This document shows, in pieces, positions 2,201 to 25,649 of a stretch of 26,332 bases of DNA; the first letter of the stretch is position 1, and each line of letters begins with the position of its first letter. This DNA is from a virus. The notes beneath the pieces were generated by a model. That model was not told the DNA's origin, searched no databases, and saw only the letters and a program-made list of their open reading frames with translations. The position numbers were made by a program, and so were the translations under genes. The stretch lies in IMG/VR virus record IMGVR_UViG_3300013372_004496, positions 1 through 26,332 of that record; one strand, 5' to 3'.

Positions 2201-2995
2201 ATGCCTAGAAGAAAACCGAAACCAGAGAAAGTTGTAGAAGAAAAAATAAGGGAGAGCCTAGATTCTATAATAATGCAAGAGGCTCTAGAAAATATAATCC
2301 CAGATAACGACGAACTACCAAGATTAAAGACTACAGATTTAATGGATTTTACTGGGGAAAAATCTGCTGCTTTATCTGATGCTAAGGCTTTACTTGATAC
2401 AATAACAAAATTTTACATGGACGACACGAGCATGGGCGAGGCTTCGCACGTGGAGTTTAAAAAGAAGGTAGATGCGATGAATTTGTCATCGATGATGTTC
2501 CAGCTAAAAAGTGCTCAGCATGCTATAACAAAAATTTTAGAGGAGATAGATCTTGGTAATATGCATCCTAGACTTTTTGAAGTTTTAGCTCAATTGCAAT
2601 CCCAGATAATGCAGATGCCTAAAGATTATCAGGCATACCTTGAAAAAATGGAACAGAACTACAAAAAAACAAGGATAGAAATTGACGAGAAGAAGCATTC
2701 CCAAGGTATAGTAATGGATCAGACATTAGGCGATAATGGATTTTATGTTAATAATACTGCGGTTACACAAGACGGGGGAATTAGATCTAGAGGTACAAGA
2801 GGAATAATGGAGGGGCTAAGAGATATTATTGGCTCGGAGATCGTGGACATAAAACCCGAGGTGGTTAACCTTAATTCTGTTGTGAATGCTAGAGATAAAA
2901 AAATATTAGATTCGCAGAACCAGAATAATAAATTAAATTTTAACGAGGAAGATCCAGGTGAAGATTTTTCTATAGAGGATGATATACTCGAATAA
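2201..2995 (+). CDS. gp16: Small terminase subunit, gp16-like
   Basis: A 264-residue, mostly helical, charged protein lying directly before the large terminase and overlapping it by one base (TAATG at 2993-2997). The middle, about residues 95-165, is predicted helical with a 'MHPRLFEVLAQLQSQIMQMPKDY' segment. This resembles the central coiled-coil of T4 gp16 ('[21 protein letters not shown]'), which forms the oligomeric ring that recognises concatemeric DNA and regulates gp17. The C-terminal 100 residues are rich in N, D and E and likely flexible. T4 gp16 has 164 residues, so this version is about 100 longer, with an extra charged N-terminus and acidic tail. Identification rests on position and the short central similarity. 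It should act with gp17 at the prohead portal. Confidence 0.7.
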   Translation: MPRRKPKPEKVVEEKIRESLDSIIMQEALENIIPDNDELPRLKTTDLMDFTGEKSAALSDAKALLDTITKFYMDDTSMGEASHVEFKKKVDAMNLSSMMFQLKSAQHAITKILEEIDLGNMHPRLFEVLAQLQSQIMQMPKDYQAYLEKMEQNYKKTRIEIDEKKHSQGIVMDQTLGDNGFYVNNTAVTQDGGIRSRGTRGIMEGLRDIIGSEIVDIKPEVVNLNSVVNARDKKILDSQNQNNKLNFNEEDPGEDFSIEDDILE

Positions 2996-4815
2996 TGGAA
3001 ACGGGGATAGAAAAAATAAATGAGATAGAAACTAATCACTGGTCTACCTCCAGGATAGAAGAATTATTAAGAAAAGTTGATGAGGAAGGATTAGATTATA
3101 AATCTATAGATAATCCATTTCATGACAATGATCCGGAGCTAAAAAGATCTAATGTTCTTTGGGAATATAGTAGATCTGAAATATTAGAGATGAAAAAATG
3201 TGCGGAGGACGTAAGTTATTTTGCTAAATATTGTAAAGTAATGACAGATACCGGCTTAGATTACATAGGTCTAAGAGATTATCAAACATCAGTATTAAGA
3301 GAGTATCAAAATCACAGATTCAATATATTTTTAGCCCCAAGACAGGTTGGTAAATCAATTACATCATCAATAATATTAGTTTGGTATCTTCTATTCAATC
3401 ATGATAAAAACGCGATGATTCTTGCCAATGTTGGGGATACTGCGGAAGAATTAATGGATAAGATAAAAACCATTATTAAAGGACTGCCTTTTTATATGAA
3501 ACCCGGTATGGTGGTTAATAATGTAATGACAATGAGATTCGATAACGGATGTAGGGTGTTAGCTAAAACTACAACCAAGACTTCTGGTATTGGTTTTACC
3601 ATACATTTTTTATACATGGACGAGTTTGCCCATATTAATTCTAATTTTATAGAGGCTTTCTTTAGATCAACATATCCCACGGTATCTTCATCAGATGTTT
3701 CTAGAATTATTATTACATCAACCCCTAACGGGATGAATAAATTTTACGAGATTTACCAGGGTGCATTAACCGGAGAAAATAGCTTTAATCCAATAAGGGT
3801 AGATTGGTGGCAAGTTCCAGGTAGGGATGACGAGTGGAAAAAAAGAGAAATAGGTAACTTAGGAAGTGAGGAGCTTTTTAATCAAGAATATGGAAATCAA
3901 TTTCTTAGTTCTTCGAGTCTTTTACTAGGATCTGATGAACTCAGAAAAATAAGAAATAACGAGGTAGAATATAGTTGGAGAGAAATTACAAATCTTCATT
4001 ATGCAGATGTCAATTACGAGAATCTTATATGGCATCCTAAATTTGATTTAGATAAAGCTAATCTACCGGGGAAGAAATTTGTTTTTTCTGTAGATCTTAG
4101 TAGCGGTGCAAAAGGTGACTTTACTGTTATAAATATATTTAAAGTTACCCCTCTTCCTAAGGTTGTTATAGAAAAAATGGAAGAATTTGAAGACGAAGCA
4201 GATTTTTTTGGCTTAATCCAGATTGGTGTTTTTAGGGACAATGAGATTAAACTTGAAGACATTACTAGGTTTTTACAAATCTTATGTTCTGAAGTTTTTC
4301 AAGTTGATAGAGTTAAAATAGCTTTAGAGATGAATTACAAAGGGGAATTAGTTTATGATAAGCTTTCCCAGAGGGATGATTTTTATGATGAAATGTTTCT
4401 TTTTACTAAACACACTGAATCTGCAAGAGTACTAAAACCAGGCATCAAGTACAACGAGAAGAACAAAATGAAATACTGCGAACTTCTTAGAAGTCTAATG
4501 AGAAGGGACAGAATAATGGTTAATGATAAAAAATGGACTATTCCTGAATTATTCACTTTTGGTTTAAATAACTCAGGAACTTATTCGAGCCAGAGCGGTC
4601 ACGATGATGTTGCTATGACGCTCGTAAATTTACCGGGATTATTCGATGGTTATTATTTTAATCAAATAGTAGGTGAGGTATTTGATGAATTGGAGGACAA
4701 CGCATACAAGGATATGATTATTAAAAAATTAGAATCTGACTTCTCTAATGAAGGTGGGAAAGGCTATTCTACAAAGGACGGTAAAAATTATCAAGATTTC
4801 AATAATCTACTCTAA
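2995..4815 (+). CDS. gp17: Large terminase subunit (packaging ATPase/nuclease), gp17
   Basis: The DNA-packaging motor protein, docking on the portal and using ATP to translocate DNA, with a nuclease domain that cuts the concatemer. It has 606 residues (T4 gp17: 610). The ATPase half shows an adenine-binding 'LRDYQ' at 93-97, a variant Walker A 'APRQVGKS' at 114-121, Walker B 'FLYMDE' at 205-210 with the catalytic Glu210, and the coupling motif 'TSTPNG' at 241-246. The RNase H-like nuclease half shows Asp367 in 'FSVDLSSG', Glu445 in 'ALEMNY', and the acidic pair Asp537/Asp538 in 'GHDD'. All key residues are present, so the enzyme should be active. The start overlaps the gp16 stop, implying translational coupling. 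This is one of the most certain calls in the window. Confidence 0.97.
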   Translation: METGIEKINEIETNHWSTSRIEELLRKVDEEGLDYKSIDNPFHDNDPELKRSNVLWEYSRSEILEMKKCAEDVSYFAKYCKVMTDTGLDYIGLRDYQTSVLREYQNHRFNIFLAPRQVGKSITSSIILVWYLLFNHDKNAMILANVGDTAEELMDKIKTIIKGLPFYMKPGMVVNNVMTMRFDNGCRVLAKTTTKTSGIGFTIHFLYMDEFAHINSNFIEAFFRSTYPTVSSSDVSRIIITSTPNGMNKFYEIYQGALTGENSFNPIRVDWWQVPGRDDEWKKREIGNLGSEELFNQEYGNQFLSSSSLLLGSDELRKIRNNEVEYSWREITNLHYADVNYENLIWHPKFDLDKANLPGKKFVFSVDLSSGAKGDFTVINIFKVTPLPKVVIEKMEEFEDEADFFGLIQIGVFRDNEIKLEDITRFLQILCSEVFQVDRVKIALEMNYKGELVYDKLSQRDDFYDEMFLFTKHTESARVLKPGIKYNEKNKMKYCELLRSLMRRDRIMVNDKKWTIPELFTFGLNNSGTYSSQSGHDDVAMTLVNLPGLFDGYYFNQIVGEVFDELEDNAYKDMIIKKLESDFSNEGGKGYSTKDGKNYQDFNNLL

Positions 4816-4895: not shown

Positions 4896-7800
4896 ATGGC
4901 AAATAAGGTAAAAATAGATTACTCTCAGTTTAGAGCATCCGGGGTTTATACCCTAGAATTTGATGCGTCCCAAAATGTAATTCTTACATCCCAGACAATA
5001 CGTCTGGTAGTAGGATTTTCTAATAAGGGACCTTTTAATACACCGGTTTATATACCAGATGTGACTACACTAATTTCTATTTTTGGAGAGATCGATAGAT
5101 CTTTAGAAAATAAAGGATCCTTTTTTCAAAGGTCCATATTAACGTGTTTAAATGCAGGCCCAGTGTTTGCTTTAAATCTTTTAAAATTAAATGATGATTA
5201 CGATTCAGCTAACCCTGATGAGGTTGATTATCAAGCATATTCACTTGACACTGAAGAGTATAACGGGGTGGTAACGAGTAAACTATATTCATCCTATTAT
5301 AATAAGGAGAGATTTTGGTTCGCTGATCCTAATTATTTCTTGGCTACACTTAGTGTTTCTGACCAGGGTAAATTATTTAGCTTGGTTAATTTGGGTAAAT
5401 CCCCGATGAGCATTATAGTTAGAAAATCAACGGATTCATCTAAACCCCTTAAAGGATATGATATATTCGCTATAGATTGGTATGGAGCTAATAACGTTCC
5501 GACTTTCATGCATCCATTTGATTACATATCTGATTATTTTATTGACGTCATAGCAGTTTTTGGAGATTGGACAAATTACCAATCTCTATCTATAGATCCT
5601 CAGTGGAGCACTTATTTTACGGAAAATGGATTTATTAAAAGTAGAATAGATAGCTTTTTATCGGAGCCCGATGTTTCTATTGTTACCTCGGTTACTGGAT
5701 GCATTATACCTGATTTCGTAGATCTTAATGGGATAAATCAATACATACAGACTCTAGTTAATAATAGCACTCCATCTACAGGATTATTCTGTGCTATAGA
5801 CGAACAAGCATTCGATAATATTTGTACTAATGGATCTAAATTAGATTTAGTTGGAAATCATCTGATTGACGAATTAACTGGAGATAGCGATTTAGCTAGT
5901 CCTAGAATTAATTTCTTAAGCTATGATCAGGTTCTTGTTGCTGATTACCTATATACACAAAATGTAGTTGGCGTAACTGGGGCAACTGGATTTGTTAGTG
6001 CTACTGGGGCTACCGCTTACACATCGGGAGCAAAGGTTGGTACTTTATACACATTACAAGATGTAGCTGGTACGACTGCAGGGGTTGTTTATCAATCTTT
6101 TGCTACTTACGATCCTAATGCTTTTGATGGAGGACTACATTATCTTCAAACATCAGGTACTGGTGCTACCTCTGGGTATTTACAAACTGCAGCTCAAAAG
6201 AACGAGCTTAAGACTTTCTTAACAGTATCCTCTTCGAATGATCAAAAGTTTATTTTAGGAGTTGTCTCTGGGTATACTGGAGGTTTAACCGGAGGATTAA
6301 TAAATCAATTTTCAGAGGCGGATCTAGTCAAGTTAAAAGTAACTGGCACTAGGGACGTATCGGGGGAATTAAGAATATTCTTCACTCACCCATTAGATAC
6401 TGGATTCTACAGATCACAAGGTATTACAGTAACACCTACATACAACCTAACTTCTTACAATACTGGGGCATCCGGAAGTAATCAACCTTTCTATACAAAT
6501 GCCTATCAATTCGGTAATTCTGATTATGTTGATATAGTTAGCACTGCTACACCTGGCGGGGTAACTGGACCTAGCGCACCTCTTGGTGTTTCTAACGTAT
6601 TAGTTGGGTATAATGCTTCCCAATTATACCAGGACAATAAATATGCTGAAATCACTAATAGCGACATAATCTGGACAAACAGTAGTGGATCCAGCGTACA
6701 ATATCTAGAGTTTGAGCAGACAGTAGATAAGGATCAGTTCAATTATGTTAATACCAGAGCATATACCAATGTTTCTTTATCTGAGACCACGGTAACAAAT
6801 ATAACTGCATTTGGTACATCTTACGCATCTAATAACGTTGGATTAACAGTAGGATCCCAGAATATCGATATAATTTCTCAGGAAGGATCAATAAACGAAT
6901 TTGTAGATTGTACAAGAATTGACGTAACAACTTTCCTTGTAACTCAGGATGTTAACGGAAACGCACCTTTCTCGGTTGGTGATTTGGTTGTTTCGACTGA
7001 TCTTGATATCTGTGAGCCTTCTACGGGAAATATACAAAACAGACTAGCTAAGATTACTACAGTTTCCTCTACAACTACTTCTGGAACATACAGAGTTACA
7101 TCAGCTAGACCAGTTTTTTATTATAATTCAGGAAACGGGGTTAGAGTTCAGAAATTTAAATCAATAGCTCAGTTTACAAGATCTTTTGATTTCACATATT
7201 TAAGTGGATTCTTAATGAATGATCTACACAGGCCAAATGGAAGTGATGCTAGGATATCAAGAATTCTTGATGTTATGTACGAAACAAATATTGCTAAGAC
7301 ATTAGCAGCTAAGGACGTTATATCTTACCGATATATTATTGATACCTTCTCTGGCCAGATCCTACCAAGTTCTAAATATCAGCTTTCTAGGTTGGCTTTA
7401 CTAAGACAACAGGCGTTGGCTATTATAAATGCCCCTTCTATGGCACAATTTAGAGCTAGCACAGATCCAAGATTTACTGATGCACCTACTGCGGCTAATC
7501 CTTATCCAAGATTAAATACTTCTTATATAGCAGAGGGTGGTAATTTATCTTTAAATCCATCTTATACATTTAGTTTACCTAGTGAAGCTGATGGAGCTAA
7601 ATATGCAGCATTTTACTCACCTTATATTACTGTAAGAGAATCTAATAGAAATATTGAAGTACCTCCTGCAGCATACGTTTCCAATAATTTCCTTAGAAAA
7701 TTTGCTAACGGAGAACCTTATGCTATTATAGCAGGACAAAAGAGGGGAGTAATTAGTGGAGGTAATATAGTAGGAGTTGAATATGATTTCACTGAAGAGG

Positions 7801-8246
7801 ACAGAGGGAATTTAGAACCTTTTGGAATTAATCCAATTATTAAAAGAAGAGGAATAGGTGTAGTTATATTTGGTAATCAAACTGCTTATCAGCAAGTTAA
7901 TTCAGCATTTAATCTCGTTCACGTTAGAGATCTATTAATTAGTGTTGAAAATGACGTACAGGAAATTTTGGCTAATTACCTATTCGATTTTAATGAGGAT
8001 TCAATTAGATTAGAGATTAAAACACTTGTAGACAACTATCTAGATGGTGTTAGAGCAGGAGGAGGTATTTATGCTTACCAAACAATTATGGATGCTTCTA
8101 ATAATACCCCTGCAATTATAGATATGAATATGGGTATAATTGATGTCATAATAGAACCAGCAAGAGGAATTCAGAAGTTTATTAATAGAATAACTGTTAC
8201 TAGAACAGGCGGAATTGCTTCTGGAGGATTTATACAATTTGTATAA
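4896..8246 (+). CDS. gp18: Tail sheath protein, gp18-like, with large insertion
   Basis: The contractile outer tail protein. The N-terminal ~110 residues show the sheath start ('GVYTLEFD', 'VVGFSNKGPFNTPVYIPDVTTLISIFGEID'). The last ~350 residues carry the conserved C-terminal domain that forms the inner sheath wall and interlinking strands ('IKRRGIGVVIFGNQTAY', 'HVRDLLISVENDVQEIL', 'IDVIIEPARGIQKFINRI'). It has 1116 residues against 659 in T4. Most of the excess lies in about residues 350-750, a T/G/S/N-rich region starting with TGATG-type repeats near residues 358-379 (about 5967-6032) and rich in short beta-strand-like segments. This is probably a set of surface domains projecting from the sheath. 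It is followed by two tail-tube genes, matching the T4 order 17-18-19. The start ATG at 4896 gives a typical 'MANKVKIDYSQFRASGVYT' N-terminus. Confidence 0.93.
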   Translation: MANKVKIDYSQFRASGVYTLEFDASQNVILTSQTIRLVVGFSNKGPFNTPVYIPDVTTLISIFGEIDRSLENKGSFFQRSILTCLNAGPVFALNLLKLNDDYDSANPDEVDYQAYSLDTEEYNGVVTSKLYSSYYNKERFWFADPNYFLATLSVSDQGKLFSLVNLGKSPMSIIVRKSTDSSKPLKGYDIFAIDWYGANNVPTFMHPFDYISDYFIDVIAVFGDWTNYQSLSIDPQWSTYFTENGFIKSRIDSFLSEPDVSIVTSVTGCIIPDFVDLNGINQYIQTLVNNSTPSTGLFCAIDEQAFDNICTNGSKLDLVGNHLIDELTGDSDLASPRINFLSYDQVLVADYLYTQNVVGVTGATGFVSATGATAYTSGAKVGTLYTLQDVAGTTAGVVYQSFATYDPNAFDGGLHYLQTSGTGATSGYLQTAAQKNELKTFLTVSSSNDQKFILGVVSGYTGGLTGGLINQFSEADLVKLKVTGTRDVSGELRIFFTHPLDTGFYRSQGITVTPTYNLTSYNTGASGSNQPFYTNAYQFGNSDYVDIVSTATPGGVTGPSAPLGVSNVLVGYNASQLYQDNKYAEITNSDIIWTNSSGSSVQYLEFEQTVDKDQFNYVNTRAYTNVSLSETTVTNITAFGTSYASNNVGLTVGSQNIDIISQEGSINEFVDCTRIDVTTFLVTQDVNGNAPFSVGDLVVSTDLDICEPSTGNIQNRLAKITTVSSTTTSGTYRVTSARPVFYYNSGNGVRVQKFKSIAQFTRSFDFTYLSGFLMNDLHRPNGSDARISRILDVMYETNIAKTLAAKDVISYRYIIDTFSGQILPSSKYQLSRLALLRQQALAIINAPSMAQFRASTDPRFTDAPTAANPYPRLNTSYIAEGGNLSLNPSYTFSLPSEADGAKYAAFYSPYITVRESNRNIEVPPAAYVSNNFLRKFANGEPYAIIAGQKRGVISGGNIVGVEYDFTEEDRGNLEPFGINPIIKRRGIGVVIFGNQTAYQQVNSAFNLVHVRDLLISVENDVQEILANYLFDFNEDSIRLEIKTLVDNYLDGVRAGGGIYAYQTIMDASNNTPAIIDMNMGIIDVIIEPARGIQKFINRITVTRTGGIASGGFIQFV

Positions 8247-8285: not shown

Positions 8286-8840
8286 ATGGCAGGATTATCC
8301 CACTTTTCAAATTCGTTATCATCAATAAATAGGCTTGAACCTGTTTATTTGAATCAATTTGAGGTTACTATTATTCCCCCGGCAGCGGTTGCTGGAGGCG
8401 AGATATTACTTCAACATGTATCCAAAGTAAGTGGACTTTCTTTGGATAAAAATCCAGGATTAGCTACCCAAAAATTTAAGTTTGCTAAAAGAAATTACGC
8501 AGGTGCTAAACCAGATCAGACATACTTTGACCTTAGCGTTAGTTTTTCGGTTAATTTAAATGACGATAACTCAATGTATGTTTTTAAAACATTAAGACAA
8601 TGGTCTGATTTAATTTACAATCCTCTAACAGGAGCAATGGGATTAAAGAATGATTATGTAGGAACTGTAGTAGTTAACATCTTTAATAAACAAGGAGATG
8701 TTTTTAGAAGGATTACTTGTAAAGATTGTTTTCTTACAAAGCCAATCTCTCCAATGAACCTAAACTATACATCAACTGATCTATACAAGATAGATGATAT
8801 GGTATGGGCAGTTGACTATTGGGAAGACCTATTTTTATAA
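8286..8840 (+). CDS. gp19: Tail tube protein, gp19-like, copy 1
   Basis: A 184-residue protein of the gp19 tail-tube family (T4 gp19: 163 residues), which polymerises as hexameric rings inside the sheath. Family signs are the start 'HFSNSLSSINRLEPVYLNQFEVTIIPP', the central 'KFAKRNYAG..PDQTYFDLSVSFSVNLND' strand pair, 'LRQWSDLIYNPLTGAMG', and the C-terminal 'DMVWAVDYWEDLFL'. It follows the sheath gene by 39 bases and is followed 16 bases later by a clearly related second copy, with strongest similarity in the C-terminal half. Which copy is the main tube subunit cannot be decided from sequence. Confidence 0.93.
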   Translation: MAGLSHFSNSLSSINRLEPVYLNQFEVTIIPPAAVAGGEILLQHVSKVSGLSLDKNPGLATQKFKFAKRNYAGAKPDQTYFDLSVSFSVNLNDDNSMYVFKTLRQWSDLIYNPLTGAMGLKNDYVGTVVVNIFNKQGDVFRRITCKDCFLTKPISPMNLNYTSTDLYKIDDMVWAVDYWEDLFL

Positions 8841-8856
8841 AAAAGAATTTAAATAA

Positions 8857-9432
8857 ATGGCAGGACTACCACATTTTAGCAATTCAAAAGCAGGTATAAG
8901 TAACTTTGAACCTGTTTATTTAAATCAGTTTGAGGTTATAATAAATCCTCCGTCAGGAATAGTAGACTCAGCTACTACTTTTAATGGGGAAGGTATATTA
9001 GCTCAACAGGTTAAGTCTATAACAGGTTTAACTGTAGATATTTCTCCTTCAGCAACTATAGAGCAAAACTATAAATTTGCTACGAGAAGATATGCAGGAG
9101 GTGAGCCTTCTACTTCAGATATGACACTTTCTATGGAATTCGAGGTCAACCTTAATGATCAAAATTCTATGACTGTTTATAAAATATTAAGACAATGGTC
9201 GGATTTAATTTATAACCCTTTAACTGGAGCTATGGGTATTAAATCTGATTATGTCGGATCTATGGTAATTCAAGTATTTAATAAAAGGGGAGACGTTTTT
9301 AGAAGAATAAGAATTCCTTCTTGCTTTTTAAGTGAAGCTGTAAATGCCATGGAATTGGATTACGAGACCCCGGCAATATATAATATTACTGCTAGTTGGA
9401 TCTGTGATTACTGGGAAGATACGTTTATCTAA
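8857..9432 (+). CDS. gp19: Tail tube protein, gp19-like, copy 2
   Basis: A 191-residue paralogue of the preceding protein. It shares 'EPVYLNQFEV', 'KFATRRYAGGEPSTSDMTLSMEFEVNLNDQNSM', an identical 'LRQWSDLIYNPLTGAMG' block, 'GDVFRRI' and the ending 'ICDYWEDTFI'. It differs by a small insertion near residues 33-45 ('SGIVDSATTFNGEGIL') in the N-terminal half. A second gp19-fold protein could be a second tube subunit, or a specialised ring at the baseplate end or tail tip; T4 gp54, which starts the tube, also has a gp19-like fold. The gene ends 25 bases before a strong intrinsic terminator, so it closes the sheath-tube transcription unit. Confidence 0.9.
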   Translation: MAGLPHFSNSKAGISNFEPVYLNQFEVIINPPSGIVDSATTFNGEGILAQQVKSITGLTVDISPSATIEQNYKFATRRYAGGEPSTSDMTLSMEFEVNLNDQNSMTVYKILRQWSDLIYNPLTGAMGIKSDYVGSMVIQVFNKRGDVFRRIRIPSCFLSEAVNAMELDYETPAIYNITASWICDYWEDTFI

Positions 9433-16533: not shown

Positions 16534-17202
16534 TTGGCAGAAAACCAAAATAATGACTTTTACGGAGGAAGTGCTTCAGAGATTGGATCGGAATTTTTCT
16601 CGGGAGGTAGTGCAGCATATCCAATAGATCCTTTAGGTGGATCAACCGGAGGATTTGTTACAAGATATACAAATATAGCGGAAATAACACTTGATTTAGA
16701 AAGGGTTGAAGCAACTCTTAAAAGATTCAATGACCCTGTTGAAATAAAATTCATAAAGGAATCATTTAAGGTAGTACAACAGTCGCAAACACTAAATTAC
16801 CTAGATCTAATTGATTTTTTCCATCCTCTCCAGAATTTTTCTGAGTTTCAGAAGGTGTCAATGATTATTGGTCCTAGATCATCAGCAAATCTAGATCCTG
16901 GATCTTTTTATGGTACTACTGGGGAAGTTTCTATGTTAATAGCAAGAGCACATTATCTACCAGAAACAACGGAAGATCAGAAGGTTCTTTTCTGGGATTA
17001 TAAGGCAAACGAAAGAAATATAATGGGAGAAATTATGGTCCTAACTGGAGCAATTAAGAACGGATCCCAGTGGAGAGGCTGGGACGTTGATCCTTTTTCT
17101 ACTTATGGTCACACTGGTAGTGCTAATAGCTACAACGGTGGATTTATATTTACCAATCCTACTGACTATAATGTCAAGTTAATAGTAATAGCAGCAAATT
17201 AA
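16534..17202 (+). CDS. Unknown, probably virion protein (paralogue of next gene)
   Basis: A 222-residue protein, most likely starting at TTG 16534 ('MAENQNNDFYGGSASE'). The N-terminal 45 residues are G/S-rich and flexible. The remainder looks beta-rich. Its C-terminal ~70 residues ('VLFWDYKANERNIMGEIMVLTGAIKNGSQWRGWDVDPF', then 'NGGFIFTNPTDYNVKLIVIA') align in pattern with the same region of the next protein ('W.Y....MGELMILSG......GWNLSKPG....GGITFCNPHTDIKIRLEI'). This implies an old duplication. It is cotranscribed after the membrane proteins and before the 931-residue protein. A tail, neck or capsid-decoration role is plausible but unsupported by any motif I know. Confidence 0.7.
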   Translation: MAENQNNDFYGGSASEIGSEFFSGGSAAYPIDPLGGSTGGFVTRYTNIAEITLDLERVEATLKRFNDPVEIKFIKESFKVVQQSQTLNYLDLIDFFHPLQNFSEFQKVSMIIGPRSSANLDPGSFYGTTGEVSMLIARAHYLPETTEDQKVLFWDYKANERNIMGEIMVLTGAIKNGSQWRGWDVDPFSTYGHTGSANSYNGGFIFTNPTDYNVKLIVIAAN

Positions 17203-17203
17203 A

Positions 17204-17689
17204 ATGGCAACAAAACCCATAACATGTCCGTACGAAGTACTAGAGGGATTTCGATTTTATCGGGGAAATCTTGTATTGGATACAGGAGAAACAAATAATC
17301 CTCAGCAATATTTAAGCATGTCTGATCTCTCGTTAGAGGTACAGAATTTTGCTAGGAATAGAGCAATACTAAACGAGTCTTCCTGTTATCTTTTAAGCCA
17401 ACCTGATGTAACCGATGAATATGGATTTGTTTCATATATTGCAGTGAAGGCAATATTTCCTAATACTGTAGTTGAATCTAAAAAATATTTAAATTGGACA
17501 TATCAAGGAAAAGATTATTACATGGGGGAACTTATGATTTTAAGTGGTAAAAGAACATCTACAACAGATGCCGGTCACGAGGGATGGAACTTAAGTAAAC
17601 CAGGAACAACCCAACAAGAAGGAGGTATTACTTTTTGTAACCCACACACTGATATAAAAATAAGATTAGAGATTCTAATCGGAAGATAA
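17204..17689 (+). CDS. Unknown, probably virion protein (paralogue of preceding gene)
   Basis: A 161-residue protein starting one base after the previous stop codon. It shares with the upstream protein the block 'YLNWTYQGKDYYMGELMILSGKRT', a conserved Gly-Trp ('EGWNL'), and the ending 'GGITFCNPHTDIKIRLEILI'. It lacks the G/S-rich N-terminus. The compact beta-rich character and adjacency to late genes suggest a structural component, possibly forming a hetero-oligomer with its neighbour. I do not recognise the family. The last codons contain a perfect 7-bp inverted repeat (17664-17680) without a T-tract. Confidence 0.7.
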   Translation: MATKPITCPYEVLEGFRFYRGNLVLDTGETNNPQQYLSMSDLSLEVQNFARNRAILNESSCYLLSQPDVTDEYGFVSYIAVKAIFPNTVVESKKYLNWTYQGKDYYMGELMILSGKRTSTTDAGHEGWNLSKPGTTQQEGGITFCNPHTDIKIRLEILIGR

Positions 17690-17767: not shown

Positions 17768-20563
17768 ATGGAATTCTTAAACCAAGTAAAAAAGCTAAAA
17801 AACATAACAAAATCATCGGAGGTTAAAGCCCTTTGTGAAAACTTCATTAACGGGGGATCCGTTTCTAAAGATCTATTAATTGAATCTTTAGAGAATCATA
17901 ATATATCCGATGACACCGAAAACAAAATTCAAACACATTTTGATGCTATAAGGAATGAAGAAATGGAAGCTTCTAGAAAAGTTGCAGATTCCATAATGGA
18001 GTCTTGGGGTGGAATAAATAATAATAAAACGTTAGGTAATTCTGGTTCATACGGCACCATAAATGAAGCATTAACGGATCCTGCTGCAATAGATAAAGCT
18101 TTTAAACCATTAAAAAAGGGGGATAAAGGACAAAAGGTAAAAGAATTACAAATATACTTAGGTGTTAAACCCATTGATGGTATTTTTGGTGAATCTTTGG
18201 TATCTACGGTTAAAGCTTTCCAGAAAAAAAATAAATTAACACCGGACGGTATAGTTGGTATTGATACTCTAAAAAAAATAATAGAAATTTTTCATGCATT
18301 AGTTCCTGATAAATCATTAGCTGACCAAGCATCATTATTTTATGGGATGATAAGGGATAAATTCTGCAACGAAGATGAATCCTTTGTAAATGAAGCATTA
18401 ACGGATAAAGCTGCAATAGAGAAAGCTTATAAGCCATTAAAAAAGGGAGATAAAGGAGAAAGAGTAAAAGAATTACAAAAATACTTAGGGGTTAAACCTA
18501 TTGATGGTATTTTTGGTGACTCCTTATTATATGCAGTTAAAGCTTTCCAGAAAAAATATAAATTAACACCGGACGGTATAGTTGGTATCAATACTCTAAA
18601 AAAAATAATGGAAATTTTTTTCTTAGCAGTTCCTAAGAAATCATTACTTGACCAAGCAAAATTATTTTATCAGGAAATAAGTAATAAATTCTTCAACGAA
18701 GAGGCATCCTTCCTGAGCGAACTTGATAGTATAAGCTCAATTGACGGAGCAGCTCAAGAGTTTATAAAATCTAACGAGGTTAACAATCTTGGGATATTAG
18801 AATCTATAGATATGATAAAAACAACATCTATTTATACCTACCCTAAAGCTAGAATTATATGTGAGCAATACCGGAATCTTATAATAAATAATAAAATACC
18901 CGAATTTGCATTAATTCATAATTTTTTAAATGACATTCAGCCGCTAAACTGGGATGATACAGTTAAATCTGTTTCCCACGGGCTTACTGAAAAATTAGAA
19001 GTACTTTCAAGAGAAATAGAAGTCTCTAAAGTTATTGAGACAATTAAAAATTCAGGTAGCTCTGCTTTCTATTCCGATCTTAGCGATACTCTTAATGAGT
19101 GGTTAATTTTGGAGAGTAAATCAAATGCTCTATTGGTTAAAAATATTTCTAGATGGTCATTTAATCCAGTGGTTAGAAACCTAATTAACTTTATAAATCT
19201 TAATGAAAATAATGATAATAGAAAATTACAAATTCCTAGTATAGCTCAAGGCGAATCTAGTGTATATAAAGTTTTCTCTCCTGTTATGTTAGGAAGTGAT
19301 AAATCTATTTTCTATCTAGGTGGAAATGTTTTTGAGTCTAATTCTGCAGCAATTAAGAAATTAACAAAGAAAGAAGTTACTGGACTATCTAGCGATTATA
19401 TTCAATTAATAGAATCTTTTAATAAGCCTTACGTTAGAATTAACGAGGAAGGAATTTTTATTCAAATAGGTAAGAGTACGGTTAGAATTATAGAAGAAGG
19501 AGAAGAAGTATCGGTTTATTTAGGGAAAAGAAAACTCAGATTTAGTGATCCTTCGGGCTTAGCTAAAATATTGGGATTAGAATCAGCTACGTATTTTGCA
19601 GTAAATGAAACTCAAGTAGTTTCCGATATTATGAGACTTTACACAAATTACCGAAATATAGTTGAACTTGATTTTGCTAAGAGTATATCTTCTAATGTAT
19701 TCGAAGGACTCGCTATTAATTTAATCAAATGGAACAAGCAGATTTACCTACAAAAGATTAACCAAGGAATGAATGAAAACTCAATTTATAAGGTTACTGG
19801 TAATCAAGCAGTATCAATGGTTAAAGAATTTATGAGATATGATATTTCCGAAGGATTAACCGAATTTTTAGTTGGAGAAAATAAGATTAAATCTATCATG
19901 GTAAATGATAGAGATAAAGTTATCGGGAATATTTCTAAAGTTGAAGAACAAATAAACAAATTGGAATCTTTAATGTCAAATAATCCTTTGTATTCTGCTT
20001 CTCCTGAGATTATGAAAGCTAAAAAACTTTTAGAGGGAGAACTTATATTTCTTAGGGAAAAATGGAACCAAATTAATCTAGAAATATCTTCATCCGAATC
20101 AACTATAGAATTAGAAAATTCTTTAGAAATTTTCGAGGATGAGAAATTTAACATTGGTGATTTTATTAAAGTTAAAGAATCCGGTGATACTGGTAAGATA
20201 ATTTCAATAGATGCTACATCTGGAAGATATACAGTTCTTTTAGATACTGGAAAAACATCAGATTTTTTAATAAGTGAAATTACCGATTTAGAGGAAGCAC
20301 TCAGTCAAGCGGCAGAGGATAATTCGGATTCAGCTGAAGATGATGATTCCGAAGAAGAGGTTAAAGAAAATTTTGGTATTTTAAGTGGAAACGGAAACAG
20401 ACTTAATAAATCAGAAATGTCTTTATCAGATCAGAAGAAGCTTTTAACTAATTTTTCAAAAGGACATGGATTTTCTAAAGCCCCTGGAGACCACAAAGGA
20501 ACGATTGATATAAAGATGGATTCTTTACATGGATATAATTCAACTATGAATAATGAAGAATAA
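17768..20563 (+). CDS. Large putative virion protein with two peptidoglycan-binding domains
   Basis: A 931-residue protein. Residues about 113-172 and 222-281 are two PG_binding_1-like domains ('LKKGDKG.KVKELQ.YLGVKPIDGIFG', 'VKAFQKK.KLTPDGIVGI.TLKKI'), part of a tandem 109-residue duplication (about 99-207 and 208-316). No lysozyme, amidase or peptidase catalytic motif is visible, so it should bind rather than cut cell wall. The middle (about 320-780) is helical and unrecognised. At about 788-840, 'FNIGDFIKVKESGDTGKIISIDATSGRYTVLLDTGK' looks like a small SH3/KOW-type barrel. An acidic stretch and 'FSKAPGDHKG' follow. Candidate prohead-protease-type sites (I/V-N-E before A) occur at residues 98-100 and 207-209. 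It might be an internal head or tail protein delivered at infection; this is inference. Confidence 0.7.
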   Translation: MEFLNQVKKLKNITKSSEVKALCENFINGGSVSKDLLIESLENHNISDDTENKIQTHFDAIRNEEMEASRKVADSIMESWGGINNNKTLGNSGSYGTINEALTDPAAIDKAFKPLKKGDKGQKVKELQIYLGVKPIDGIFGESLVSTVKAFQKKNKLTPDGIVGIDTLKKIIEIFHALVPDKSLADQASLFYGMIRDKFCNEDESFVNEALTDKAAIEKAYKPLKKGDKGERVKELQKYLGVKPIDGIFGDSLLYAVKAFQKKYKLTPDGIVGINTLKKIMEIFFLAVPKKSLLDQAKLFYQEISNKFFNEEASFLSELDSISSIDGAAQEFIKSNEVNNLGILESIDMIKTTSIYTYPKARIICEQYRNLIINNKIPEFALIHNFLNDIQPLNWDDTVKSVSHGLTEKLEVLSREIEVSKVIETIKNSGSSAFYSDLSDTLNEWLILESKSNALLVKNISRWSFNPVVRNLINFINLNENNDNRKLQIPSIAQGESSVYKVFSPVMLGSDKSIFYLGGNVFESNSAAIKKLTKKEVTGLSSDYIQLIESFNKPYVRINEEGIFIQIGKSTVRIIEEGEEVSVYLGKRKLRFSDPSGLAKILGLESATYFAVNETQVVSDIMRLYTNYRNIVELDFAKSISSNVFEGLAINLIKWNKQIYLQKINQGMNENSIYKVTGNQAVSMVKEFMRYDISEGLTEFLVGENKIKSIMVNDRDKVIGNISKVEEQINKLESLMSNNPLYSASPEIMKAKKLLEGELIFLREKWNQINLEISSSESTIELENSLEIFEDEKFNIGDFIKVKESGDTGKIISIDATSGRYTVLLDTGKTSDFLISEITDLEEALSQAAEDNSDSAEDDDSEEEVKENFGILSGNGNRLNKSEMSLSDQKKLLTNFSKGHGFSKAPGDHKGTIDIKMDSLHGYNSTMNNEE
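18062..18388 (+). repeat. Tandem 327-bp repeat, unit 1 (PG-binding domain A)
   Basis: Encodes residues 99-207, from 'NEALTDPAAIDKAFKPLKKGDKG' through the PG-binding domain and a C-terminal helix ('SLADQASLFYGMIRDKF'). It is gaplessly periodic with the next 327 bases. Confidence 0.88.
18389..18715 (+). repeat. Tandem 327-bp repeat, unit 2 (PG-binding domain B)
   Basis: Encodes residues 208-316, 'NEALTDKAAIEKAYKPLKKGDKG' through 'SLLDQAKLFYQEISNKF'. DNA similarity to unit 1 is high, including identical runs in the segment coding 'KLTPDGIVGI', so the duplication seems recent compared with the rest of the gene. Confidence 0.88.
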
Positions 20564-21284: not shown

Positions 21285-21770
21285 ATGGTTGATATTAAGA
21301 AAGTAAAACCTAACGGGGAATATCGGTCAGGTAAATATGAACCAAGAAATCCTGAAAAATATATAGGAGATATACACAATATTATATATAGATCCTCTTG
21401 GGAATATAGATTTTGTACCTATTGTGATACTAACGAATCAATTTTAAAATGGAGCTCAGAACCAGTATCGATAGATTATTATAATCCATTAGATAAGAAA
21501 GATCATAAATATAATGTCGATTTCTATATAAAAGCATTAAAAGAAAACGGGGAAGAACAGGATTGGATCATTGAGATAAAACCAGAAAAACAGACAAAAA
21601 AACCTATATATGAAGGGGTAAATACTCTTAGTAAGCTAAAATCTTACAACAGAAATATGCAAATTTGGATAACGAATCAGTCAAAATTTAAGGCAGCAAA
21701 AGAATGGGCATTAAAAAGAGGATTTAAATTTGGTGTAATAGACGAAAACTTTCTTTTTAAAAGCAAATGA
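21285..21770 (+). CDS. gp4: Head completion protein, gp4-like nuclease fold
   Basis: A 161-residue protein closely following T4 gp4 (also called gp50/65): 'SGKYEPRNPEKYIGDIHNIIYRSSWEYRFCTYCDTNESILKWSSEPVSIDYYNPLDKKDHKYNVDFYIK' matches gp4's 'GKFVPKNINKYKGDYTKIIWRSLWERRFMVYCDTNPAVIEWNSE'. The fold is TnsA/PD-(D/E)XK-like: Glu40 in 'SSWEYRF', Asp79 in 'VDFY', and Glu97/Lys99 in 'IIEIKPEK' keep the apparent active site. In T4 the protein acts on the filled head after packaging so that heads can join tails. The gene overlaps the next by four bases (ATGA at 21767-21770), indicating coupling. In T4, gene 4 precedes gene 53; here it precedes an unknown protein and the portals. Confidence 0.93.
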   Translation: MVDIKKVKPNGEYRSGKYEPRNPEKYIGDIHNIIYRSSWEYRFCTYCDTNESILKWSSEPVSIDYYNPLDKKDHKYNVDFYIKALKENGEEQDWIIEIKPEKQTKKPIYEGVNTLSKLKSYNRNMQIWITNQSKFKAAKEWALKRGFKFGVIDENFLFKSK

Positions 21771-22372
21771 GTTTTAAGGAGTTAATTTTAGAATACCGTA
21801 ATAATATAAAAGGCGGGAAGGATATCTTTAAACAGACTGATGAATACTTCTTAAAAGATTATTTTAAGAATAATAAAAGATTTATGACTCAGCCGATTTC
21901 CATAATACCTGGTAAAATCTACTATTTTAATTATTTAACTGATTCTAAAATTAGCAAGGAAAGAAAGTTTATAGATAGATTTCCTGTAATTTTATGTACT
22001 GATTTTTTTGAATCTGGTGGGTTTAAAATAATGAAAGGAATAGATTTAGTAACTACCCCCACAAAATATAGAATAGAGATTATAAGTACAATCTCTGATT
22101 TATTTGAGCAAACGTTAAAAGATAATGATATTACCGAATCAAAAGGTGGAATACCATCTCCTTTAAATTTAAAAGATACTGAATTAAATAAAATTTTAAA
22201 AGGAACTGGATATAAATCATCTCTTTTTGGATTTAAAACATCCTTTATGAAGAATATGGGATCAATTGTTTACAAGGATTGGATCAGAATACCATATTTA
22301 ACCGTTAATTTAATAGAGGGCTTAAAATTATCTGGGATATATAGTGAATATGAATCGAAATTAAAACTATAA
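21767..22372 (+). CDS. Unknown T4-like phage protein, possible virion component
   Basis: A 201-residue protein coupled to gp4 by an ATGA overlap. It shows 'IIPGKIYYFNYLTDSK....FIDRFPVILCTDFF', 'GIDLVTTPTKYRIEII' and, near the C-terminus, 'FGFKTSFMKNMGSIVYKDWIRIPYLTVNLIEGLKLSGIYSEYESKL'. This arrangement (a 'PG.IY.F.Y' strand, 'DRFPVIL', and a late 'W...PYL') is one I remember from uncharacterised proteins of many tailed phages, but I cannot attach a function. In T4 the gene after 4 is 53 (baseplate wedge); the sequence does not resemble gp53 as I recall it. Its place between head-completion and portal genes suggests an assembly or structural role. Confidence 0.7.
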   Translation: MSFKELILEYRNNIKGGKDIFKQTDEYFLKDYFKNNKRFMTQPISIIPGKIYYFNYLTDSKISKERKFIDRFPVILCTDFFESGGFKIMKGIDLVTTPTKYRIEIISTISDLFEQTLKDNDITESKGGIPSPLNLKDTELNKILKGTGYKSSLFGFKTSFMKNMGSIVYKDWIRIPYLTVNLIEGLKLSGIYSEYESKLKL

Positions 22373-22390: not shown

Positions 22391-24016
22391 ATGGCTGGAT
22401 TTGTTGAAAATAATAATCCTGGACAAACTCCTGTTATACAGAGAATCCGGGATTCCGTAAGAAAGTTAAGTACCTTCGGTATGAAATACGATGACATGGT
22501 CATACGTAACTCTCAAGCTGTTGGGGTAACCGAGGCATCATTTTTAAATAAGAATAAATCCAACGTAGAGGACGAAAGCATGCTCTGGACTCTTGCTAAG
22601 CAGGATATATCATCCAGACAATTTATTGGATATTTCGATAAGGATTATAAGGGCAAAAGGGAATACTTAAGAAAGTTTTCTCTTAATCCTGAAATAGAAT
22701 GGATTTTAGATACTATATGTGACGAGTCTATTTCTTATGATCCTGCTAATTTTTTCGCATATCCTGATTTTATTGATCTCAGTGACATTAACGAAAAGTT
22801 AAAGGATGATCTATATGATGTATTTAAAAAACTATATGACGTATGGGGATTTTCTGATGATATTACAGCATGGCAATATTTTAGACAATTTATAATTGAT
22901 GGATTTCTTGCTTTTGAAATTATTTATGATGATAAGGGTAAAGAAATAGTTGGATTTAAAGAATTAGACCCAGTAACACTAATACCTAGTGTAGAGAAAC
23001 AAATAGATGGATCTTTTGTTAATACGTGGACACAATATCCTCAGGATCCTAAGAAAAAAAGAGTTCTTTATGATCCGCAGATAATTTATATTTCGTACGC
23101 TAAGGGTAACGCAGTATCTAGGGTAAGTTATATAGAAAGACTAATAAGACCTTACAATATTCTTAGAATTATAGAATACACGAGGGTAATTTGGTCAGTA
23201 ATGAATGCTTCTTTTAAATTAAAGATGACGGTTCCTATTGGTAGTAAGTCCCAGCAAAAAGGTATGCAAACTCTAGGTGAATTAATGAGCATTTATAAAG
23301 AAGATATTCAATTAAATGATGAGAGCGGGGAATTAAGCGTAGACGGAAGACCAAAGATACAATTTTATAAGAATTATCTAATGCCTTCTGGTGTTAACGG
23401 AACACCTTCCATAGAACCTATAACAACAGATGGACCAAATCTTAATGACCCAGCTCCTTTAGCATATTTCTTTGATAAATTTATACTTGAATCTAAGGTC
23501 CCTCCTTCAAGATTTCATAATCCAGATGGCGGTACAACATCACCATATTCTAACGGGGCAGAAGGATTAGACAAAGAAGAAATAAGATTCGCAAAATTTA
23601 TTTCAAGATTAAGATCAATGTTTCAGGAAATAATAACAAAACCGCTTTGGTTGCAAATGGTAAATAAATATCCTAAATTGGAAGACGATTTTATGTTTAA
23701 GAGCCAATTAGGTATTGACTATTTCTCAGATAATCCATTTAAATTAAATCAGGAGATTGATATAATAAACAAAAGAAAAGAAGCGGTAGCTGCTTTAGGA
23801 GGTATTATGGGGGATGAGGAAAAACCATTTTTCTCTAATGCTTTCCTTATAGAAACATATCTAGGAATTTCTAAGCAAGATATTGATGCTAACAAAGAGG
23901 CATTAAAAAGAAAAGCAAAAGAAAAAAAAGAAAAAGGGAAAGAAGGCGAAGCGGAAGAAGCTAAACCTGCAGAAGGAGAGGAAACAACTGAAGAAGAAAC
24001 GGCTCCTGCAACTTAA
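22391..24016 (+). CDS. gp20: Portal protein, gp20-like, copy 1
   Basis: A 541-residue member of the T4 gp20 portal family (T4: 524 residues), which forms the dodecameric ring at the capsid vertex that initiates head assembly, docks the terminase and later joins the neck. Signs are the N-terminal 'NPEIEWILDTICDESI', wing/stem 'WQYFRQFIIDGFLAFEIIYDDKGKEIVGFKELDP', 'ISYAKGNAVSRVSYIERLIRPYNILRIIEYTRVIW', 'GELSVDGRPKIQFYKNYLMP' and 'ESKVPPSRF....GLDKEEIRFAKFISRLRSMFQEII', equivalent to T4's 'RVPLSRIP...[23 protein letters not shown]'. The C-terminal ~45 residues are a K/E/A-rich tail. It is followed 22 bases later by a second portal gene. Both copies keep the family core. Confidence 0.93.
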   Translation: MAGFVENNNPGQTPVIQRIRDSVRKLSTFGMKYDDMVIRNSQAVGVTEASFLNKNKSNVEDESMLWTLAKQDISSRQFIGYFDKDYKGKREYLRKFSLNPEIEWILDTICDESISYDPANFFAYPDFIDLSDINEKLKDDLYDVFKKLYDVWGFSDDITAWQYFRQFIIDGFLAFEIIYDDKGKEIVGFKELDPVTLIPSVEKQIDGSFVNTWTQYPQDPKKKRVLYDPQIIYISYAKGNAVSRVSYIERLIRPYNILRIIEYTRVIWSVMNASFKLKMTVPIGSKSQQKGMQTLGELMSIYKEDIQLNDESGELSVDGRPKIQFYKNYLMPSGVNGTPSIEPITTDGPNLNDPAPLAYFFDKFILESKVPPSRFHNPDGGTTSPYSNGAEGLDKEEIRFAKFISRLRSMFQEIITKPLWLQMVNKYPKLEDDFMFKSQLGIDYFSDNPFKLNQEIDIINKRKEAVAALGGIMGDEEKPFFSNAFLIETYLGISKQDIDANKEALKRKAKEKKEKGKEGEAEEAKPAEGEETTEEETAPAT

Positions 24017-24038
24017 GGAGAATATAATATTATAGCTA

Positions 24039-25649
24039 ATGGCAGGATTTTTAGATTTTTTAAAACCAAATCAATCAGCTTTAGGTAATATCCTGAAGAA
24101 CCTTTCTAATGTTGCAAAATTTGGGATGCAATATGATGATATGGTTGTTAGAAATTCACAGGCTATTGGTAAAACAGAGGGATATTTTTTTAACCAAGAA
24201 GGAAGTGGATTTACACAAAATGATGCTTTTCAATGGACAGCATCTTATCAAGATACCAAAGTAAGAAAATATATTGCTTATTTTGATAGGGACTATATCG
24301 AGAAAAGAAATTATTTAAGGAAGTTTTCGTTAAATGGTGAGATCGAGTTTATTCTAGATACAATAACTGATGAATCGATAGTATATGATGATCGTAATTA
24401 TTTCGCTCAGCCATCTTTCGTTAATTTAGATTTAAAAGATAAGATTAAGGATAAAATATCATCCCATTATAATAGAATATACAATGTTTTTGGTTTTCAA
24501 AATACAATTCTTGGTTGGCAGTATTTTAAGCAATTTTTAATTGATGGATTTTTAGCATTTGAGATAATTTATGACAATAAAGGAAGAGAGATAATAGGAT
24601 TTAAAGAACTTGACCCTACTTCTCTTCAACCAGTAGTAGAGAAAGTGGCAGAAAATGAATATAGACAATTTTGGATCCAATACCCAAAGAATCCACAAAT
24701 GACAAGAAAACTAACTAATGAACAGATAATTTATATTTCTTACGCTAAGGGAAATACTATCTCTAGGGTTAGCTATATAGAAAGATTAGTTCGGTCATAT
24801 AATATTTTAAGAATAATGGAGAATTCCAGAATTATCTGGAACGTAATGAATTCATCTTATCGTTTAAAATTTATTATTCCTATTGGTAGTCAATCTCCAC
24901 AAAAAGCAATGCAAACACTTGGCCAGCTAATGTCCAATTACAAGGAAGATATATCTATTAATGATTCATCGGGGGAATTAACAGTAAACGGAAGGCCTAA
25001 AGTTCAATTTTATAAAAATTATCTTTTTCCCGAAAAGGACGGGCAAACCCCAGATATATCGTCACTTAATTCAAGTGGACCGGACTTTAACGTAATGGAG
25101 AATGTAGTATACTTCTTCAATAAATTAAAAATGGATTCTAAAATCCCTTATGCTAGATTTGCTTCTAAAAATACAACTCCTGGAAATTATCAGACTAGTA
25201 TAGATCAACTAGAAAGAGACGAGATAAGATTCGAGAAATTTTTAAGAAGGCTAAGATCTATATTCCAAGAGATTTTAGTAAAACCCCTTTATATTCAAAT
25301 GTGTTTAGACTATCCGGAGCTATCTAGAGATAAAGGATTTAAAGCAAACATAGGATTAAATTATAACAGGGATAGTGAGTTTGAAGAAATGGTGGAACTT
25401 ACTGGATTTACAAAAAGAACTGAATTTATAAACGGATTAAAAGAGCTAAAAATTAAGATTGGTGAGGAAGAAAAAGGATATTTTGATCCTGATTTCTTAG
25501 TTCAGAGATTCTTAGGAATGAATCCAGATCAAATAAAAATGAATCAGAGATATAAAGAAAAGGCAGAAAAAGAGGCAGAAAAAGCTAAGAAAGAGGGAGG
25601 AGAAGAAGGCGGAGAAGAAGAAGCAGGAGGAGGAGCAGTCACCTTATAA
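24039..25649 (+). CDS. gp20: Portal protein, gp20-like, copy 2
   Basis: A 536-residue paralogue of the preceding portal, colinear over almost the whole length; I judge roughly half to two thirds of positions identical by eye. Shared blocks include 'YDDMV.RNSQA.G.TE', 'REYLRKFSLN.EIE.ILDTI.DESI', 'DGFLAFEIIYD.KG.EI.GFKELDP', 'IIYISYAKGN..SRVSYIERL.R.YNILRI' and 'SGEL.V.GRPK.QFYKNYL.P'. Differences concentrate near residues 30-60, in the segment around 335-385 (loop before 'DSKIPYARFASK'), and in the C-terminus, which here ends in a G/E-rich tail. The core appears intact, with no stop or frameshift, so it is unlikely to be a decaying copy. The two could co-assemble or be used in separate rings. 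Confidence 0.93.
   Translation: MAGFLDFLKPNQSALGNILKNLSNVAKFGMQYDDMVVRNSQAIGKTEGYFFNQEGSGFTQNDAFQWTASYQDTKVRKYIAYFDRDYIEKRNYLRKFSLNGEIEFILDTITDESIVYDDRNYFAQPSFVNLDLKDKIKDKISSHYNRIYNVFGFQNTILGWQYFKQFLIDGFLAFEIIYDNKGREIIGFKELDPTSLQPVVEKVAENEYRQFWIQYPKNPQMTRKLTNEQIIYISYAKGNTISRVSYIERLVRSYNILRIMENSRIIWNVMNSSYRLKFIIPIGSQSPQKAMQTLGQLMSNYKEDISINDSSGELTVNGRPKVQFYKNYLFPEKDGQTPDISSLNSSGPDFNVMENVVYFFNKLKMDSKIPYARFASKNTTPGNYQTSIDQLERDEIRFEKFLRRLRSIFQEILVKPLYIQMCLDYPELSRDKGFKANIGLNYNRDSEFEEMVELTGFTKRTEFINGLKELKIKIGEEEKGYFDPDFLVQRFLGMNPDQIKMNQRYKEKAEKEAEKAKKEGGEEGGEEEAGGGAVTL

Follow-up and report, generated by a model that had tools for sequence, protein, structure and literature searches.

Why does a phage with T4-type structural genes carry two complete portal genes side by side, and do their products build one ring or two? 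The question is raised by a 26,332-base virus record (IMG/VR record IMGVR_UViG_3300013372_004496, analysed over its whole length and called the window here), a T4-type structural region with a G+C content of 32% in which two gp20-type portal genes, named A and B, follow each other directly. The portal is the ring by which viral DNA passes into and out of the head. Phage T4 has a single gp20 gene, the product of which forms a homododecamer (PMC4493910). A preliminary description of the window had proposed that A and B form either a mixed portal ring or two rings with different partners. The checks it proposed speak for a real, fixed and functional pair, and the mixed ring is mildly favoured by the covariation of evolutionary rates and by a parallel duplication of the tail tube gene that the preliminary description had not noted. 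To our knowledge, portals of tailed phages beyond T4 have been described as rings of one protein. Our tentative answer, to which we assign a probability of about 0.48, is that one mixed portal ring of 12 subunits needs both A and B, perhaps with six copies of each.

Open reading frames (ORFs), PF07230 (Portal_T4) and PHROG 213 confirm two full-length, colinear gp20-type genes 22 bases apart, as the preliminary description had stated, and the scores of both proteins (Table 1) far exceed the PF07230 cut-off of 22.9 bits. A and B lie on the same strand, both begin with the residues MAGF and share 51% identity over 506 aligned columns (515 bits). Across 67 distinct pairs the spacer between the genes measures 1-23 bp, based on predicted starts, and because it is so short, the two genes are probably co-transcribed.

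Loci of the clade were gathered from viral contigs using B, A and an alignment of both as queries. Each locus scan comprised the best 80 loci, and all locus totals given here apply among the matches listed (at least 229 for the clade). These 229 loci correspond to 108 distinct DNA regions, the same contig often being fetched by two queries, and yield 81 distinct A/B protein pairs, of which 54 are less than 95% identical. Exactly two adjacent portal ORFs on the same strand were found in 223 of the 229 loci, invariably in the order A then B (223/223). The portal lies at the contig end in the five loci with one portal (L068, L069, L086, L186 and L233), and in L196 (6629-8247) a frameshift divides B into two overlapping frames, the sole such case among the 229. 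The paralogues thus always occur together, as would be expected of a heteromeric ring born from duplication, apart from five contig ends and one frameshift. When searched whole, 15 of 15 double-portal records (107-434 kb, a few near-identical) contained exactly two portals, in contrast to the usual state of T4 gp20-type portals, one per genome. The search for paired gp20 genes in relatives, which the preliminary description had suggested as a check, therefore returned a fixed pair and no patternless loss of a copy. In this clade of large uncultured phages, the A/B pair is fixed.

Outside this clade, a single portal was present in all 86 listed loci of two neighbouring lineages, 57 of which extend more than 1.7 kb on both sides. 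Seven of eight named single-portal records searched whole gave one portal match; the eighth, LR756501, holds a full portal and a small C-terminal fragment. Among 50,697 named phage records, the best match was 44% identical to A and 45% to B, in a search that may omit records very near the window. Searches of the named records with A and B returned 1,963 places in 1,961 records and 2,074 places in 2,072 records, respectively, i.e. one place per matching record except for LR756501 and LR756503 (735 kb, of equal length), which gave two each; the second place in LR756501 is the C-terminal portal fragment. Plasmid records gave no match to B. A pattern scan of bacterial and archaeal genomes returned four relatives, in each of which one portal is visible. 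One of these, a 3.3-kb fragment (L444, CALMHN010000092.1), carries a portal that joins nearest to the A/B pair and is too short to reveal a second copy.

The two copies form two conserved clades, in agreement with the preliminary expectation for a gp20 tree. In a tree of 94 portals, in which 36 of the 54 representative pairs were included, all A sequences fall in one clade (support 100) and all B sequences in another (99), and a more careful tree of 46 portals (16 of the 54 pairs) separates them with supports of 100/100 and 100/99. This history is most simply read as one duplication at the clade's base. The distance matrices of A and B are correlated with r = 0.94, a value reached in 0 of 999 permutations, and no clear sign of gene conversion was seen: the mean A-B distance is 0.502 when both come from the same phage and 0.507 when they come from different phages. 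Among A sequences, and likewise among B sequences, divergence reaches 40-42%. The median ratio of nonsynonymous to synonymous substitution rates (dN/dS) was 0.020 for A and 0.017 for B in 14 pairs among 18 phages; in nine more distant pairs it was about 0.03 for both copies, with dS saturated. Conservation per domain is also nearly equal (A/B values of 0.876/0.866 for the clip and 0.813/0.791 for wing1). Purifying selection thus acts on both genes, and the relaxed selection on one copy considered in the preliminary description was not seen; the dN/dS values rule out a pseudogene in the 14 close pairs. A and B are two intact, constrained and co-inherited paralogues.

The differences between the copies are concentrated in one part of the protein. 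Using the domain limits of T4 gp20 (Sun et al. 2015, PMC4493910), we found 27 positions that are fixed for different residues in A and B, 20 of them in the stem, clip and tunnel loop. When the columns that are fixed in both copies are counted, 20 of 82 differ in this region and 7 of 109 elsewhere (Fisher p = 0.0006). Several are long-held conservative swaps, e.g. E/D, D/E and K/R at the tunnel loop. The preliminary description had placed the differences mainly in an N-terminal segment, in a loop before the 'S+(V/I)P..RF' motif and in the charged tails; the loop indeed falls in the stem, clip and tunnel region, while the N-terminus, like the crown, is variable inside both A and B. The predicted models align with T4 gp20 with Z 22.6 and a root-mean-square deviation (rmsd) of 8.4 over 363 residues for A and Z 21.7, rmsd 12.8 and 374 residues for B. 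T4 gp20 structures rank first for both, and in these models of modest confidence both proteins keep the portal fold from wing to crown.

Evolutionary rates were compared on a common tree of 41 of the 54 phages, in which both control genes are complete, using 59 of 79 branches after the shortest quarter was dropped. Branch rates of A and B are correlated at 0.80, compared with 0.44-0.58 for A or B against two neighbouring genes and 0.37 for those two genes with each other. The channel part of A is correlated at 0.67 with the channel part of B and at 0.55 with the rest of A; the rest of A is correlated at 0.74 with the rest of B, and the two parts of B at 0.51. Like domains across A and B therefore covary more than unlike domains within one protein, with a difference D of 0.35 (bootstrap 0.05-0.70) when computed from separate alignments of A and B. 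On the 521 columns shared by these alignments, 60 random column splits gave a mean D of -0.05 and a maximum of 0.16, and six contiguous windows of columns gave 0.05-0.21. This modest signal fits like domains packing side by side in one ring.

A second axial protein is duplicated in the same phages. Two tandem gp19-type tail tube genes lie in the window (Table 1), with products that are 53% identical (blastp) and share PHROG 32623, a family without assigned function, as their best match. In two whole-record searches, exactly two tubes were present in 30 of 34 double-portal records and exactly one in 19 of 24 single-portal records, the remaining four and five, respectively, having no match; no record with a tube match departs from this rule of equal portal and tube copy number. 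Both tubes were present in 79 of the 80 best loci of a tube scan of viral contigs, and the remaining locus is cut at the contig end. Each tube type occupies one side of a branch in the tube tree (supports 95 and 95), and 22 alignment columns are fixed differently between the two; K75/E83 and N70/R78, which alter charge, are among them. In one clade genome (G010), the only near-full-length paralogues of more than 50% identity among genes of assigned structural role are those of portal and tube. Sheath, terminase and head protease had no match to another gene of this genome at E 1e-5, and its major capsid protein has two weak partial paralogues (37% over 84 aa and 21% over 202 aa). Three genes of the same genome that we read from their sequence as fibre-like are about 31% alike.

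With two diverged portal genes and two tube genes, the DNA channel of these phages may be built from two proteins rather than one. Two neighbouring portal genes would have arisen by one basal duplication in the clade, and their products would have diverged where T4 subunits pack together and line the channel, i.e. in the stem, clip and tunnel loop. A and B would together build one 12-subunit ring at the head vertex, with six A and six B perhaps alternating, and both would retain a capsid-facing wing and an exposed clip. With its two kinds of site, such an alternating ring would be truly six-fold symmetric and would match the six-fold tail. In T4, the gp20 dodecamer is joined to the gp13 dodecamer and the gp14 hexamer (PMC12270204, preprint), and since dodecamers there meet a hexamer, an alternating portal would itself carry the six-fold symmetry. 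As this lineage also duplicated its tail tube, the whole axial DNA conduit may have shifted from one-protein to two-protein rings. We regard this wider version, in which an alternating portal of six A and six B sits on tube rings that contain or alternate the two paralogues, as doubtful.

Several points weigh against the mixed ring. The evidence for a contact between A and B is indirect, and the rate covariation could stem from shared partners (terminase, capsid or host) rather than from contact. The two windows nearest to the channel region gave the highest D of the six (0.19-0.21), yet stay below 0.35. The channel-channel minus channel-rest difference by itself amounts to 0.12 (bootstrap -0.10 to 0.32). 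When terminal branches are taken separately, D drops to 0.15 and the advantage of A-B over the control genes disappears (-0.03); these control genes are shorter and noisier. AlphaFold confidence is low (mean predicted local distance difference test, pLDDT, of 63 for A and 60 for B), with a poorly predicted clip, so that interface faces cannot be mapped. The union of A and B against 14 single portals is supported at only 91/77, which leaves the exact place of the duplication not firmly fixed. Finally, the association of portal and tube pairs may be chance co-inheritance, since it rests on one clade.

The same observations bear on other explanations. A and B could form two separate homomeric dodecamers, used in two kinds of particle (one with tube 1, one with tube 2), at separate stages or in different hosts. 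In favour of this, no portal domain is missing from either copy and constraint on the two is equal; portal and tube pairs also occur in the same phages, as if two whole head-tail axes coexisted. Two such axes are harder to reconcile with a terminase, sheath and protease without paralogue in G010 and a capsid protein with only two weak partial ones, and adjacency within 1-23 bp in 67 pairs fits genes that are expressed jointly and not as alternatives; coupled rates in the same domains, though compatible, are not predicted. We consider this arrangement unlikely. Duplicate tube copies in extracellular contractile injection systems (eCIS) take stacked positions. One portal copy could similarly be the real portal and the other a repurposed protein, for example one that forms a second ring stacked on the first, initiates the prohead or belongs to an internal body, and two tube genes are known in the Bacteroidales eCIS clusters, which encode related injection systems (PMC7394362). 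Repurposing should have relieved constraint on the parts that face the terminase, neck or capsid; neither A nor B has lost a domain, conservation per domain is near-equal and dN/dS is equal, which makes it quite unlikely.

A shared ring might also have arisen without a symmetry advantage, by a neutral ratchet in which complementary interface losses after duplication made both copies necessary. Some positions conserved in 18 single portals were lost in A only (six), in B only (three) or in both (seven), and the fungal V-ATPase c-ring offers a precedent of constructive neutral evolution (PMC7982386). The lost positions are few, however, and would need to lie on opposite faces, and the duplication of two ring proteins in one lineage would need two ratchets; we judge this very unlikely. 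To redundant dosage copies without division of labour, or an assembly artefact, we give almost no weight: nothing specific speaks for them beyond the single frameshifted B of L196. The pair recurs in 81 distinct protein versions, which rules out the artefact, and 27 differences between A and B have stayed fixed despite 40-42% divergence within each copy, with a within-phage distance that shows no clear gene conversion.

How far do known systems resemble this arrangement? T4 gp20 (PDB 3ja7, 9lu7 and 6uzc) shares PF07230 and the wing-stem-clip-crown order with A and B, and gp2-, gp17-, gp18- and gp19-type genes near the portal recall the T4 neighbourhood; T4 differs in having one gp20, to which the two paralogues are 18-21% identical in structural alignments. 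The nearest named record is the LR756500-type huge phage (462 kb) with its relatives, which shares neighbouring genes and has a portal that is 44-45% identical, but has one gene each for portal and tail tube. Lak megaphages, Tenacibaculum phage PTm1 and Sphingomonas phage PAU match in having T4-type portal and tube genes as well; they differ in that each of four records (Lak-A2, Lak-B4, PTm1 and PAU) gave one match for the portal and one for the tube. A ring that gained a paralogous subunit after duplication is the fungal V-ATPase c-ring, which was reportedly put to an experimental test in Finnigan 2012 (as cited in PMC7982386); in the portal clade a heteromeric ring is inferred only. In T5, the symmetry of an axial ring was lowered by duplication, the tail tube protein pb6 having changed from a hexamer to a pseudo-hexameric trimer with copies fused in one protein (PMC5717097); in the present clade the copies are separate genes and the portal is affected too. 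Rings altered by duplication thus have precedents in a tail tube (fused, T5 pb6) and in the V-ATPase, and none for portals in the literature searched, to the extent that it was accessible.

The full-text literature searched, which lacks most subscription journals and was covered without figures and supplements, contained no recognisable account of paired or heteromeric portals or of duplicated tail tubes, most listed articles being judged by title and opening lines of the abstract, and the accessible portal passages of PMC7162821, PMC7824862, PMC8346664 and PMC12363816 describe no such pair. The last of these describes the portal gene of gut Jug phages as fragmented and/or highly divergent. 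The accessible abstract of PMC9723584 mentions portal vertex proteins in the plural, in phages that encode bS21 beside such genes, with bS21 located within a few genes of the terminase, portal, protease and capsid genes. Membership of the bS21-encoding Bacteroidetes phage clade of that article was not supported: PF01165 was found in 1 of 13 double-portal records (G007), where bS21 lies at 40.7 kb, distant from the portals at 316-319 kb.

It has long been asked how a 12-fold portal is joined to a 6-fold tail and a 5-fold capsid vertex. If the conduit had two components, the change from 12-fold to 6-fold symmetry would be written into the portal itself. If A and B do form a mixed ring, this would, as far as we know, be the first portal of a tailed virus that is obligately heteromeric. 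With two portal genes occurring naturally across a clade, each of two sites could be mutated separately, and it could be tested whether ring complexity reflects function or a neutral ratchet. The tube duplication adds a specific, checkable prediction on the whole conduit, in phages with contigs of up to 434 kb.

Table 1. Positions of the portal pair, the tail tube pair and context genes in the window
Feature	Position	Strand	Remarks
Terminase large subunit (gp17-type), context	2995..4815	+	PHROG 5989 and 2
Tail sheath, context	4896..8246	+	1116 aa; PHROG 34521 tail sheath
Tail tube protein 1, gp19-type	8286..8840	+	184 aa; PHROG 3629 tail tube, 28.3 bits
Tail tube protein 2, gp19-type	8857..9432	+	191 aa; PHROGs 3629, 45 tail tube, 28.1, 24.5 bits
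DNA end protector (gp2-type), upstream neighbour of A	21767..22372	+	PHROG 429, 27.7 bits
Portal protein A, T4 gp20-type	22391..24016	+	541 aa; PF07230 193.8 bits; PHROG 213
A-B spacer	24017..24038	+	22 bp; gap between ORFs
Portal protein B, paralogue of A	24039..25649	+	536 aa; PF07230 232.9 bits; PHROG 213

Besides the end protector, tube, sheath and terminase genes, a late sigma factor match lies upstream of the portal pair. The tail sheath is long compared with T4 gp18 (659 aa, from T4 gene coordinates). A further, strongly diverged tandem pair without assigned function is located at 16534-17202 and 17204-17689 (26% identity over 134 aa); in the 200 kb examined of LR756500, nothing matched its counterparts in G010. 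The 931-aa protein encoded at 17768-20563 of the window contains two similar repeats that, judged by eye, resemble peptidoglycan-binding domains.

In G010, nine paralogous genes of 224-351 aa without assigned function, several of them in tandem and partly more than 50% identical, lie at 234-239 and 273-279 kb (L339 and L341). The L444 fragment is filed under a bacterial metagenome-assembled genome, and the ORFs upstream of its portal resemble, by eye, the same sigma factor, nuclease-like and end protector genes. The second portal match of LR756501.1 (15166-15351), in a phage of 735 kb, falls in a 101-aa open frame that matches only the C-terminal part of the portal profile. In LR756500.1, terminase similarity is spread over three ORFs, and at least eight related ORFs of 537-647 aa are scattered among the structural genes between 140 and 300 kb (L345-L352); these may be inserted mobile or homing genes.

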